This document shows positions 3,728 through 24,112 of a stretch of 27,567 nucleotides of DNA, in pieces. The translations under genes were made by a program, and so were the position numbers. The stretch comes from a virus. The stretch spans positions 1 to 27,567 of IMG/VR virus record IMGVR_UViG_3300021197_000702, one strand, 5' to 3'. The number at the start of each line of letters is the position of its first letter. Position 1 is the stretch's first letter. A model generated the notes under the pieces. The model made no database searches and was not told the DNA's origin. It saw only the letters and a list, made by a program, of their open reading frames with translations.

Positions 3728-4090
3728 ATGATACAGCTTACTAATAGTACGGGTTACCAATCATTCTATCTAAAACTAGATGGCTATGATACGACTGCTA
3801 TAACTCCCGTTCGAGTTACGATGGTAAATCAATTAACTAGTAAGTCAACAAATTTTGGATCAGTTACACCTACGGCAGCTAACGGTAGGTATACTACAAT
3901 ACAAATCCAAGTAGCATCTACTCCTAAACTTGTAGAAGGTTTGTATTTATTAAAAGTAAAAAACAGCGGAAACAATGTAACTTACGCTACACGACTTGCA
4001 TTTGTTTCTAGCACACCTGCGTTTAAAGAATCCACATATACACCTTATGGAGAAGAAGACGGAAACGCTTATAACGTATATGCCCCATGA
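3728..4090 (+). CDS. Small beta-rich structural-region protein (120 aa)
   Basis: No firm family. The 120-residue protein alternates hydrophobic and polar residues in a pattern of strands (YQSFYLKLDGYD, YTTIQIQVAS, GLYLLKVKNSG, YATRLAFVSS) and ends in a Tyr-rich tail TYTPYGEEDGNAYNVYAP. I recall similar small proteins beside portal genes in flavobacterial phages, with a G-x-Y/L core and a final T-Y-x-x-Y segment. It overlaps the portal start by ATGA. It may be a minor head decoration or a tail protein. The start is the ATG after a purine-rich leader just downstream of the terminator. Confidence 0.65.
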   Translation: MIQLTNSTGYQSFYLKLDGYDTTAITPVRVTMVNQLTSKSTNFGSVTPTAANGRYTTIQIQVASTPKLVEGLYLLKVKNSGNNVTYATRLAFVSSTPAFKESTYTPYGEEDGNAYNVYAP

Positions 4091-6060
4091 ATAAGCAGAA
4101 CTTTTCGGTTATAGAGTATCAATCACCTTTGCTTCCTATTTTTAAGGAAAGCCAAAACAAGTTGTGGATTGATATGGGCGCGGACAACCTATACCCACAC
4201 TACCTAGAAGAACTGTATGCTAGTTCTAGTATGCACGGTGCAATCATTAAAGGCGTAAGCGAAATGATTTATGGGGAAGGCTTGAATGCCATTTCCAAAG
4301 ATCAACACGTCGAACAATGGTTAAAGGTTAATTCTATTTTTGGTGATGGAACGTGTTTAAAGAAAGCAGCCTTTGACCTAAAGCTGTACGGTCAATGCTA
4401 CTTAAATATAATTTGGTCACAAGACAGGACTACAGTAAGTCGAGTGCATCATTTGCCTGCTGCAACTATGCGATGCGGTATAGCAGATGATGAAGATAAA
4501 GTGCCTCTATTCTACCACAAAAAAGATTGGGCAAAGCAACAAGAAGAGCCGTTAGTCATTCCTGCGTATGACACAAACGATCGAGCAGCAGCATCACAGT
4601 GTTTGCATATTAAAATGTATTCGCCACTTTCGTTTTATTACGGGGCGAGCGATTATGAGTCAGGAACGGCATACGCACAGATAGAGGCAGACTTGGCAGC
4701 TTACCATCTTTCTTCGATAAACCAAGGATTTTTTCCCTCAACTATCATGAACTTCAATTCGGGCGTACCGACAGAAGAAGAACGTGCTGAACTAGAAAGG
4801 TTGGTTTACAATAAGTTTGGAGGGGCAACAAACGCAGGGAAAATCTTGATGACGTTTAATGACTCACAAGACACAGCACCCACAATTGAAAGTTTTAATT
4901 TATCTGATGCACATCAGGTATTTGATTACCTGAGTACAGAGTGCAGTAAAAAAGTATTGTCAGCGCATAGAGTTACAAGCCCGTTGTTGTTTGGCTTGCG
5001 CGATACAGGAGGTGGTTTTGGAAACAATGCCGACGAGATGAAAGAATCGTATGACTTGTTTTACAATACAGTTGTACTTCCTTTTCAACGTCTATTGCTT
5101 GATGGTTTAAGACCTGTTTTTGCAGCAAGTAACATTACGCTTGAATTGTACTTTACACCTATGAAGCCTGCATCATTTGTAGAGGTAGACAATTTGTTTG
5201 ACCCTGTACGAGCAGGTGACACTTCAGATAAAGACGCTAGTTACAACGGAGCGCAAATTTCAAGTGCTGTTGACGTGTTAGTTAAAGTGCAAGAAGGCTT
5301 AATTACTACCGATCAAGCTAAGGTGTTCTTGGTGCAGATGTTGCAATTTACACCTGAAGTAGCAGATGCTTTGTTTGTGGAAGGCGTAGACGCAATTACG
5401 AAAGTACAAGAAGAAGAGGTTCAGGAAGAAGCAATTGCAGAAACGCAGTTAAAAAAAAAAGATAGCGAATTACAAAAGCGTATGCGAGCAATAGACGCTA
5501 GGCTTGGAGATGATTTCTATTACGTAAAATCTGAGTTAGTCGAAGATGATTATCTTGATGAAATGCTACACGCTAAGAAGCATTTGTTTTATGCTGAATA
5601 CTCAAATGTAGAAGATGTTTCTGATTACGGAGATGTAATTGGAAAAGATGACTACTTGTTTGCCGTAAGGTATCGATACGCAGAAACAGCCACAACGCCT
5701 GCACAGAGTAACGAAAGCAGGGACTATTGTGTAGAGATGATGGAACTTTCAGATGATGGGGTTATCTATCGCTACGAAGACATACAAGATATGTATTATG
5801 AAAACCCTGAATTTAATCATCCCGGCACTTCAGGTTTTGACAAGTTTACTCTAAAAGGCGGTATCTACTGTAGGCACGGATGGCAAAGAGAAATCTTTAT
5901 TTACGCTCCTGACGGAGAGCCAAAAGAAATGGAGATGATAGAAATAGAGGGCAATTGGGATGATGTAATGCGTAGGGTTGGCAATAACCCTGACGTAGTA
6001 CAAAAGGGAGAAGAATACACAGCACCTATTGATATGCCTAATAGGGGCGCATATAACTAA
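4087..6060 (+). CDS. Portal protein with C-terminal Cys/His domain
   Basis: Forms the dodecameric DNA channel at the head vertex. Residues 1 to about 430 look like a phage portal: NLYPHYLEELYASSSMHGAI near the start, LKLYGQCYLNIIW, a central HLPAATMRC, and the segment KVLSAHRVTSPLLFGLRDTG followed by GNNADEMKESYDLF, which fits the crown/clip-to-wing region of Bacteroidota phage portals. An acidic linker (about 430-480) leads to an extra domain. It contains SRDYC (544-548), IYRYEDIQDM, KGGIYCRHGW (Cys595-Arg-His597) and a final DMPNRGAYN. That pattern resembles the C-terminal part of MuF-type minor head proteins. The length of 657 aa is large for a portal and agrees with a fusion. It overlaps the upstream gene by ATGA. 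Confidence 0.8.
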   Translation: MNKQNFSVIEYQSPLLPIFKESQNKLWIDMGADNLYPHYLEELYASSSMHGAIIKGVSEMIYGEGLNAISKDQHVEQWLKVNSIFGDGTCLKKAAFDLKLYGQCYLNIIWSQDRTTVSRVHHLPAATMRCGIADDEDKVPLFYHKKDWAKQQEEPLVIPAYDTNDRAAASQCLHIKMYSPLSFYYGASDYESGTAYAQIEADLAAYHLSSINQGFFPSTIMNFNSGVPTEEERAELERLVYNKFGGATNAGKILMTFNDSQDTAPTIESFNLSDAHQVFDYLSTECSKKVLSAHRVTSPLLFGLRDTGGGFGNNADEMKESYDLFYNTVVLPFQRLLLDGLRPVFAASNITLELYFTPMKPASFVEVDNLFDPVRAGDTSDKDASYNGAQISSAVDVLVKVQEGLITTDQAKVFLVQMLQFTPEVADALFVEGVDAITKVQEEEVQEEAIAETQLKKKDSELQKRMRAIDARLGDDFYYVKSELVEDDYLDEMLHAKKHLFYAEYSNVEDVSDYGDVIGKDDYLFAVRYRYAETATTPAQSNESRDYCVEMMELSDDGVIYRYEDIQDMYYENPEFNHPGTSGFDKFTLKGGIYCRHGWQREIFIYAPDGEPKEMEMIEIEGNWDDVMRRVGNNPDVVQKGEEYTAPIDMPNRGAYN

Positions 6061-16262: not shown

Positions 16263-16580
16263 ATGGCTAAGTACGATAAAGGACAATCAGGAAACCCTAA
16301 CGGAAGACCGAAAGGTGCTAAGGGCAAAATTTCTAGTGAGGCACGAGAATTGTTTGTGCAGGTTATGGAAGGCGAGATAGATAAGATCAGAGATTCATTG
16401 GGTGTATTGCGTGAGAACAGTGATGAGAAATACCTAAAGGCTTTAAGCAGCTTGATGCCATACTTTATGCCTAAGCAAGTAGAAACTGACGTAACCATTC
16501 TAGAGGCTTCTAAGCCGCCTTCGTGGTTCGATGAGGTATTGGATAGGACAGACCAAGAAGAAGAGAACCTGACTACGTGA
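16263..16580 (+). CDS. Terminase small subunit (DUF5681-like N-terminus)
   Basis: Likely the DNA-recognition subunit of the packaging motor. It has 105 residues. The N-terminus GQSGNPNGRPKGAKGK (8-23) is the DUF5681-type basic motif found in small terminase-like proteins. The following helical part (ARELFVQVMEGEIDKIRDSL, YLKALSSLMPYFMPK) could be an oligomerising coil, and the acidic C-terminus SWFDEVLDRTDQEEENLTT may contact the large subunit. The start follows CAGAAAAAAACAGAC, a typical A-rich Bacteroidota start context, and the end overlaps the GTG start of the large subunit. A 50-base gap upstream shows a poor promoter-like pair only. Position supports the role strongly. Confidence 0.8.
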   Translation: MAKYDKGQSGNPNGRPKGAKGKISSEARELFVQVMEGEIDKIRDSLGVLRENSDEKYLKALSSLMPYFMPKQVETDVTILEASKPPSWFDEVLDRTDQEEENLTT

Positions 16581-17728
16581 AACAGCCCAAAGCGTACTAC
16601 GATGTAAAGGGCAGCAAAGCACGTATAGTTTGCCTGCAAGGTGGTAGTCGGAGTGGCAAGACCTATTCGGTTTTACATTGCCTATGTGAGTGGTGCTACA
16701 CGTACCAAAACTCACAGTTTACAATTACGATTATACGCAGAAGTTTTCCTTCGCTTCGTGCCAGTGTCATGCGTGACTTCTTCAATATCATACAGGAGGC
16801 AGGATGGTATCAAGAGAAACACCACAACAAGACCGAGAACACATACAATCTATTTGGCAACCTAGTTCAGTTTATAAGTGCCGATCAGCCTGACAAATTC
16901 AGAGGTGCTAAACACCACTTCGTTTTTCTTAATGAGTGTACAGAGTTACAGAAAGAAGTTTTTGTTCAAATTTCTATGCGTACCCTGTACAAGATATTCA
17001 TAGACTTCAACCCGTCAGAAGAATACCATTGGCTGTACGACACGGTAATACCTAGGGATGACTGCGACTTCTTTAAGTCTACCTACCTCGACAACCCGTT
17101 CTTAAATAAGGAGGTAGTAGATGAGATTGAAAGACTCAAGGACACAGACGAGAATTACTGGAGAATCTATGGACTAGGGGAAAGAGGCATAAGTAAGGAA
17201 ACAATATTTCAAACTCACGTCTACGATGAACTACCTGAGAACGCAAAGCACATAGCCTACGGGTTGGACTTTGGATTTGCTGCTGATCCTGCCGCCTTAG
17301 TTCGAGTTAGTCAAAGGGGAGATGAACTGTACATGGAAGAGTTAATCTATAGTGGAGGACTGACTAACCAAGACTTAGGGGAGAAGTTTAAGACATGGGA
17401 TATAGGGAGGCACGATGAAATTATTGCAGACAGCGCAGAACCAAAAAGCATTACCGAGTTATCGCGCATGAACTTTAACGTAAAGCCTGCACGTAAAGGA
17501 GCAGACAGCATACGCAATGGCATTGACATAATGAGAAGGCACAAGTTGTTTATTAAGTCAGACAGCTTGAACTTGCAGAAGGAGTTTAGAAACTACAAAT
17601 GGAATACCGATAGGGATGGGCGTATACTGCCACACCCGAAGGACGCATGGAATCACGGAATCGACGCTGTGAGATATTGCTGCCTTAACAAACTAGCCCA
17701 TAGAAACCGTTCATACTACGTAAGATGA
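16577..17728 (+). CDS. Terminase large subunit (packaging ATPase/nuclease)
   Basis: The motor that pumps DNA into the head and cuts the concatemer. Walker A GGSRSGKT (22-29), a Walker B-like strand HFVFLNE (114-120, Asn-Glu catalytic) and a coupling motif IDFNPSEEYHWLY (142-154) make the ATPase. The RNase H-like nuclease shows YGLDFGFAADPAALVRV (228-244), IIADSAEP (282-289) and DAWNHGIDAVRY (356-367), the three acidic sites. It is of the PBSX/Terminase_3 kind. The length of 383 aa is a little short for the family but all blocks are present. The start is GTG at 16577, overlapping the small-subunit TGA; no ATG occurs before Walker A. It overlaps the next gene by ATGA. Confidence 0.95.
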   Translation: MKQPKAYYDVKGSKARIVCLQGGSRSGKTYSVLHCLCEWCYTYQNSQFTITIIRRSFPSLRASVMRDFFNIIQEAGWYQEKHHNKTENTYNLFGNLVQFISADQPDKFRGAKHHFVFLNECTELQKEVFVQISMRTLYKIFIDFNPSEEYHWLYDTVIPRDDCDFFKSTYLDNPFLNKEVVDEIERLKDTDENYWRIYGLGERGISKETIFQTHVYDELPENAKHIAYGLDFGFAADPAALVRVSQRGDELYMEELIYSGGLTNQDLGEKFKTWDIGRHDEIIADSAEPKSITELSRMNFNVKPARKGADSIRNGIDIMRRHKLFIKSDSLNLQKEFRNYKWNTDRDGRILPHPKDAWNHGIDAVRYCCLNKLAHRNRSYYVR

Positions 17729-18351
17729 AAGTAAGTCTACCTGAAGGTTACCACGAAATAACTATTGAGCAATACCAAAACGTTTGGAAAGCGTATGAAA
17801 AATCTACTCACGCTCACGAGTCAGTAAGATTAGCAATTGAATGTTTAGCAGGGTTGGAGCAAGGAGCATTGCAAAACGCTCAATGGCATGAAATAGAAAA
17901 GGCAGGCGAATTGCTTGCGTGGTTTATATCTGATCCCGATGCTTCAACTTTAAAGCAGCCATTACAAAACAAGATTAAGCTAAATGGTAGGTGGTATGGT
18001 TTTATCCCTAACTGGACAACGCTAACAGTAGGAGAGTTTGCAGACCTTGACACGTACTGCAACCAAGGGATGTTTGAAAACCTGCACATCATTATGTCTA
18101 TTCTTTACAGACCAATTGCGCTTGAACGCCATGACAGTTACGAGATAGAATCATACGTCCCAAGCAAGGAAAGGAAGGCAGAAATGCTTAACTTGAAGAT
18201 GGACGTAGCTATTGGAGCATTGGTTTTTTTTTGCAACATCGAAAAGGAATTAGCTATCACTATGGAACGCTCTTTGAACGGAAAGACGCAGATGAAAAAG
18301 CCAAGACGATTCACAGCAAGTGGGGATGGTACGCCACTATCTACGAACTAG
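17725..18351 (+). CDS. Tail assembly chaperone, short form (gpG-like)
   Basis: Likely the chaperone that coats the tape measure during tail assembly. The 208-residue protein has the layout I know from flavobacterial phages: LPEGYHEITIEQYQNVWKAY (5-24), KLNGRWYGFIPNWTTLTVGE (85-104), FADLDTY, NLHIIMSILYRPI, YEIESYVPS and VAIGALVFFCNIEKEL (161-176), followed by a poorly conserved tail. A run of nine T in the VFF codons (18224-18232) lies before the end, and the -1 frame is open from 18192 to 18485, so some ribosomes probably make a longer G-T form. It starts within the terminase stop by ATGA. The role is inferred from family memory and the frameshift layout. Confidence 0.7.
   Translation: MKVSLPEGYHEITIEQYQNVWKAYEKSTHAHESVRLAIECLAGLEQGALQNAQWHEIEKAGELLAWFISDPDASTLKQPLQNKIKLNGRWYGFIPNWTTLTVGEFADLDTYCNQGMFENLHIIMSILYRPIALERHDSYEIESYVPSKERKAEMLNLKMDVAIGALVFFCNIEKELAITMERSLNGKTQMKKPRRFTASGDGTPLSTN
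18224..18232 (+). promoter_or_regulatory. Probable -1 ribosomal frameshift slippery site (T9)
   Basis: Nine consecutive T (18224-18232) in the frame GTT TTT TTT TGC contain the slippery heptamer T TTT TTT. A -1 slip leads from residue 169 (Phe) into the frame read from 18231. The -1 frame has a stop at 18189-18191 and stays open to 18485; the zero frame stops at 18351. RNA-polymerase slippage on the T run could give the same product. Confidence 0.75.
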
Positions 18352-18485
18352 CAAATGAGAATCCTTTAAGTATTCAGAGTGTAACAGAACTTTATATAGA
18401 AGATGTACTGACTTTTCTTTCATACGAAAAAGACGTTCGGGTATCGCAAAACATTAAAATGAATGCAGACAATACAGGACATTAA
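18231..18485 (+). CDS. Frameshift extension of tail chaperone (gpGT T-domain)
   Basis: The -1 frame part of a probable 253-residue G-T fusion: 169 residues read from 17725 up to the T run, then 84 residues from 18231. The frame has no ATG until its last codons, so it can hardly be translated alone; it only makes sense as an extension. Its body KTIHSKWGWYATIYELANEN (about 27-46 of this part), SVTELYIEDVLTFLSYEKD looks like the T domain of tail chaperones, which binds the tape measure (W-G-W-Y ... L-x-F-L-x-Y-x-K-D). The last bases overlap the next gene start at 18463. Confidence 0.75.
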   Translation: MQHRKGISYHYGTLFERKDADEKAKTIHSKWGWYATIYELANENPLSIQSVTELYIEDVLTFLSYEKDVRVSQNIKMNADNTGH

Positions 18486-23948: not shown

Positions 23949-24112
23949 TGAAATACTGGATAAACGCCATAGGGTATGGAATCCCTTTAGCTGTACGTTT
24001 GGCGCAAGACGAAGAGCAAAAAGGCAAAAAAATGTGGTTGCATTGGTACGGTAGGCACGATTTAAAGGTTAGCGCGTTGAAGAAGATCAACTTAATACTG
24101 AAGAACCGATGA
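23948..24112 (+). CDS. Small basic hypothetical protein (54 aa) before tape measure
   Basis: A 54-residue gene wedged between the hub and the tape measure, overlapping both by 1 and 4 bases (TAATG, ATGA). The protein is basic and Trp-rich (MKYWINAIGYGIPLAVRLAQ, KKMWLHWYGRHDLKVSALKK). Its perfect fit between coupled starts and stops, and the unbroken operon spacing it creates, argue that it is translated. Possible roles are a small tail assembly factor or a virion component; I recognise no family. Confidence 0.7.
   Translation: MKYWINAIGYGIPLAVRLAQDEEQKGKKMWLHWYGRHDLKVSALKKINLILKNR

Follow-up and report, generated by a model that had tools for sequence, protein, structure and literature searches.

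A run of nine Ts, close to the 3′ end of an open reading frame termed G in the window (the whole 27,567-nt stretch of DNA, from a Bacteroidota phage, that was analysed), is the site of a change into the −1 frame. That this change is real, and that it is programmed to give a short product and a long one, is strongly supported by comparison of related sequences. The shift would occur mainly by transcriptional slippage on the run, a mechanism somewhat favoured (probability roughly 0.55) over −1 frameshifting by the ribosome. G/GT frameshifting is already known, and so is transcriptional slippage on T runs; what is new here is the run itself, whose length is conserved at T9–T11 regardless of its phase.

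At the run, frame 0 of G reads GTT TTT TTT TGC; in the −1 frame an open stretch begins at 18192 and runs to a stop codon ending at 18485. If reading shifts by −1 at T_TTT_TTT, it resumes with TTG at 18231, then CAA, which puts the junction after residue 169 (Table 1). The coordinates given in a sequence-only reading of the same DNA, for the T9, the 208-aa ORF, the open −1 frame and the 253-aa fusion, all hold. The predicted tryptic peptides at the junction are MDVAIGALVFFLQHR for the fusion versus MDVAIGALVFFCNIEK. No Rfam family was matched in the window. A T9 is expected by chance 1.9 times in the window (both strands), so its mere presence is unsurprising and the case lies in its position at the junction and in its conservation.

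Table 1. Features of the G/T locus, in window coordinates.
Feature	Position	Strand	Remarks
G ORF	17725..18351	+	208 aa, frame 0; conserved domain is residues 1–169
T9 slippage run (candidate)	18224..18232	+	seen in sequence; T9–T11 in 155/156 representatives
In-frame heptamer T_TTT_TTT in T9	18225..18231	+	frame counted from 17725
T extension, −1 frame	18231..18485	+	84 codons and stop; no conserved start codon
G-T fusion (predicted)	17725..18485	+	253 aa via −1 shift at T9
G's own tail past the run	18233..18351	+	frame 0 coding, without protein-level constraint

Homologues were drawn from IMG/VR, GTDB genomes and cultured phages, several hundred being returned. About 440 loci carry a G homologue, and T occupies the −1 frame of G in every one of the 439 in which both domains can be located. 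The run in 156 non-redundant two-frame representatives (about 88% identity) is T9 in 114, T10 in 37, T11 in four and T8 in one, with none at T7. Retention of the run by relatives, with both frames conserved, was one of the checks that the sequence-only reading had proposed for its programmed frame change, and the claim is strongly supported by at least nine Ts in 155 of the 156, by conservation of T in the −1 frame and by a switch in dN/dS at the run. Its further remark, that a run purely of Ts is rather unusual for a flavobacterial phage, is wrong for this group, where T9–T11 is the rule.

The switch is seen within the window's own cluster. Before the run omega for G is 0.01–0.06; past the run it is 0.07–0.15 in the −1 frame versus about 1–2 in the G frame, and coding constraint thus switches frame at the run. 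The latter value means that the 39 C-terminal residues encoded by the G ORF are without sign of selection. For the T extension as a whole omega is 0.07–0.32. As with lambda G/GT, the second ORF overlaps in the −1 frame without a start of its own and the first ORF has a conserved shift site at its 3′ end.

Separate synthesis of T, through reinitiation or coupling where G terminates and with no fusion being made, is very improbable. The annotation of the cultured phage P12024L does have a separate ORF from an ATG that overlaps the G stop codon, but a −1-frame ATG ahead of the KWGW motif is present in just 25 of 151 representatives and absent from 126 (the −1 frame had correctly been described as lacking a usable ATG, and no start is conserved), protein conservation of T begins already at the run (FFLxFR), the T run is itself conserved, and two relatives encode a continuous fusion. 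Hardly credible at all is that this is really one gene, interrupted by a frameshift mutation or a homopolymer sequencing error. A T10 with the fusion in frame (L099) and continuous fused ORFs without the run (L285 and L407) are what could be cited for it, yet the −1 layout is present in several hundred contigs and in two finished phage genomes, and both halves are under purifying selection. Homopolymer sequencing error is ruled out by these contigs and by the finished genomes of the two cultured phages.

A ribosomal heptamer requires just seven Ts, in one phase. The runs of the 156 representatives are found in all three phases relative to G, with phase 1 the commonest, and a tree built without the junction residues has at least 11 phase changes, all rows outside phase 1 having nine Ts or more. 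Phase 2 involves loss of a 5′ T, and there all 34 cases have TTT as the following −1 codon, which amounts to a 3′ extension of the run; of the 115 cases in phase 1, 107 have TTA, TTG or TTC at this codon and 7 have TTT. When Phe codons only are considered, the ratio TTC:TTT is 10:7 in phase 1 versus 0:34 in phase 2 (Fisher 1.5e-6; 2e-4 on 70% clusters). Four independent contrasts for 3′ compensation are well supported (seven on all branches) and none is in the opposite direction; a sign test on the four gives p 0.25, being a test without power. Since loss of a 5′ T is offset by 3′ extension, it appears that length is selected and not merely an in-frame T_TTT_TTT, and we read this as selection keeping the run at nine Ts or more in any phase. 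[The extra Ts of phase 1 can come from a heptamer plus hydrophobic codons on either side; phase 2 is harder to explain by hydrophobic flanking codons.] Elsewhere in the same phages, in 374 kb of coding sequence, runs of at least nine Ts number 0 against about 3–3.6 expected. The sole two-frame relative with a run under nine is L316, with T8 at 2003-2010.

On the transcriptional reading, RNA polymerase would slip on the T9, where the rU:dA hybrid is weak, and some mRNAs would acquire U10 (or U7). An ordinary ribosome would read the U10 (or U7) mRNA as G-T and the U9 mRNA as G, the transcript mix setting the G:GT ratio. The junction residues would be VFFLQ from a U10 transcript, as also from a ribosomal shift, and VFLQ from a U7 transcript. 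A runs above 7 and T runs above 8 are given as programmed transcriptional realignment sites in PMC3711429, and many bacteria avoid A/T runs at nine nt (PMC1088944). The T9–T11 of this family is at or above the published length independently of phase, and compensated. A runs of at least nine are depleted in the other genes of these phages (5 seen versus 21.7 expected). These thresholds, with the depletion of such A runs and absence of such T runs from other genes, favour polymerase slippage, and since the run is kept at nine Ts or more whatever its phase the shift is probably made at transcription and not on the ribosome.

The serious alternative, given rather below an even chance, is that the ribosome makes a programmed −1 frameshift at U_UUU_UUU (18225-18231), the mechanism used for lambda gpG/gpGT. 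Nine Ts would then result from the hydrophobic neighbours of FF in either frame, whose second codon positions are T, or from a boost in efficiency by extra Us. An in-frame heptamer of the form X_XXY_YYZ is present in the window and in relatives, the direction is −1 without exception (which fits both mechanisms), the sister prophage family considered below holds a phase-fixed T7, L316 has T8, and lambda-like phages shift on the ribosome (PMC5009743). Every run contains an in-frame T heptamer, a motif depleted in the phages' other genes (14 versus 35), so ribosomes may slip there too. [By phase, T7 seen/expected in other genes is 12/22 for phase 2, 6/5 for phase 1 and 0/4 for phase 0.] Against ribosomal shifting stands the retention of at least nine Ts across phase changes. 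So does the finding of neither an upstream nor a downstream RNA element around the run: wobble bases upstream are free in the window family, none being frozen, and no extra downstream folding or stem-loop was detected (z about 0 in a pseudoknot-free model); a stimulator of this kind is usual for ribosomal frameshifting, though it can be dispensed with. In E. coli, U_UUU_UUU is also reported to shift far less readily than A_AAA_AAG (PMC5009743). Transcriptional slippage is accordingly the mechanism we prefer as the main one, and it and ribosomal slippage may both contribute.

A distant G/T family is present in prophages; of 301 genomes sampled within a single bacterial family of the same phylum, 64 carry it. 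Its layout is as in the window and its run is phase-fixed (CAT or TAT, then Ts), with T7 in 25 of 30, T8 in four and T9 in one. Ahead of the site, over codons −10 to −4, wobble positions hardly vary (GTA ACG GAG GCN CTG CCC), as an RNA element would require; clear extra folding at the site was not found in this family either. The nucleotide-frozen GTAACGGAGGCNCTGCCC directly 5′ of T7 in these Bacteroidota prophages (L453-L494) is a candidate ribosomal-frameshift stimulator. To judge from sequence, the combination of a fixed T7 and a frozen upstream element looks as expected for ribosomal frameshifting. A wider proposal, which we put only just short of even odds, is that in a large group of Bacteroidota phages the ratio of two morphogenesis proteins depends on polymerase slippage at a length-conserved T9–T11, that related prophages make these two proteins by ribosomal frameshifting on a T7, and that an A10–A12 in a portal linker may act likewise.

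The likeness to lambda gpG/gpGT is in a short protein with a minority fusion, a −1 overlap, a T without its own start and a location in a virion-gene module, but a match of sequence or solved structure between the lambda and window pairs is absent. The lambda pair is just before the tape measure gene, whereas the window pair follows the terminase gene, and lambda has a ribosomal heptamer where the window family has a length-conserved T9–T11. Shigella mxiE has programmed transcriptional slippage on Tn, n > 8 (cited in PMC3711429), and there too a threshold-length T run leads to a product continuing in another frame; however, the gene is unrelated, and slippage in the window is something we infer. 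For dnaX the route is ribosomal frameshifting at a heptamer with stimulators in E. coli and transcriptional slippage on A9 in Thermus (PMC1088944, PMC3711429). The homologues considered here appear similarly split, between a heptamer plus upstream element (the prophage T7) and a bare homopolymer of at least nine (the window family). The dnaX case differs in being a cellular gene with an A run and a measured shift of about 50%, slippage in the window family being a prediction.

Tail-chaperone frameshifts are textbook ribosomal events. The literature searched, subscription papers aside, yielded no account of transcriptional slippage in a gene for tail assembly, and none of likely slippage combined with a G/GT arrangement in a phage assembly gene that has a ribosomal-looking sister family. 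If polymerase slippage is correct, transcription would fix the product ratio of a virion-assembly module, and a switch of mechanism would have taken place between homologous genes within one host phylum, in parallel to dnaX. Annotation is corrected as well, T being entered as a gene of its own even for the cultured P12024L/S.

The terminase gene (16577-17728) directly precedes the pair, the gene past the pair has a weak head-tail connector match, and the tape measure gene is at 24109, 5.6 kb downstream; the pair thus does not occupy the lambda G/GT site immediately ahead of the tape measure gene. No Pfam family matches G or T, and the one PHROG match to G is of unknown function. The AlphaFold model of G has a pLDDT of 90, and its fold matches are to other uncharacterised phage proteins and, weakly, to one predicted protein named tail assembly chaperone (E 5e-3); neither sequence profile nor fold links G to a solved structure. 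The model of T consists of four helices (pLDDT 79), for which there was no structure match. In systems of the lambda type, the binding partners of G and T are the tape measure protein and the tail tube protein respectively. The label ‘tail chaperone’ is a plausible analogy drawn from architecture, the synteny feature being absent, and by the same sort of analogy the pair probably helps in assembly of the virion, most likely of its tail. On the minus strand of Flavobacterium phage 6H (L591:10352-10927), a weak G fold match ends near TGTTTTTTCTAT, where there is TTTTTTC and then an ORF in +1; homology of that ORF to T is not clear, and this could be a different recoding signal.

The Nonlabens phages P12024L and P12024S, whose genomes are finished, have at about 25% identity a T9, the −1 layout and an adjoining terminase gene. 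P12024L_40/_41 and P12024S_38/_39 are the homologous pair, with a GT of 231 aa. In their records (JQ823123.1 23946-24640 and JQ823122.1 23136-23830; L045 and L046) each half is entered as a separate hypothetical protein, with no mention of the T9 frameshift. Queries with the T domain or the fusion revealed no phage isolates beyond these two. A single continuous G-T ORF without a T run is present at L285:1498-2211 and L407:1498-2211. In L099, with T10 near 2976-2985, the fusion is in frame and the G-type frame is open too, the arrangement being inverted or a sequencing error having occurred. Some lineages may have dropped the two-product arrangement or, in L099, inverted it.

Another homopolymer is in the portal ORF (4087-6060), where an A10 at 5451-5460 is in the linker between the portal core and the C-terminal 200 residues. 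It is A10–A12 in many relatives (loci concerned: L512-L524, L572, L576-L590; L498/L518), being kept though A runs of at least nine are depleted elsewhere in these phages. It is possible that the A10 is a second slippage site, leading to a short portal, but such a run is lacking in 28 of 59 relatives. In L518, which is 98% identical, the run is A9 and the portal gene is split.
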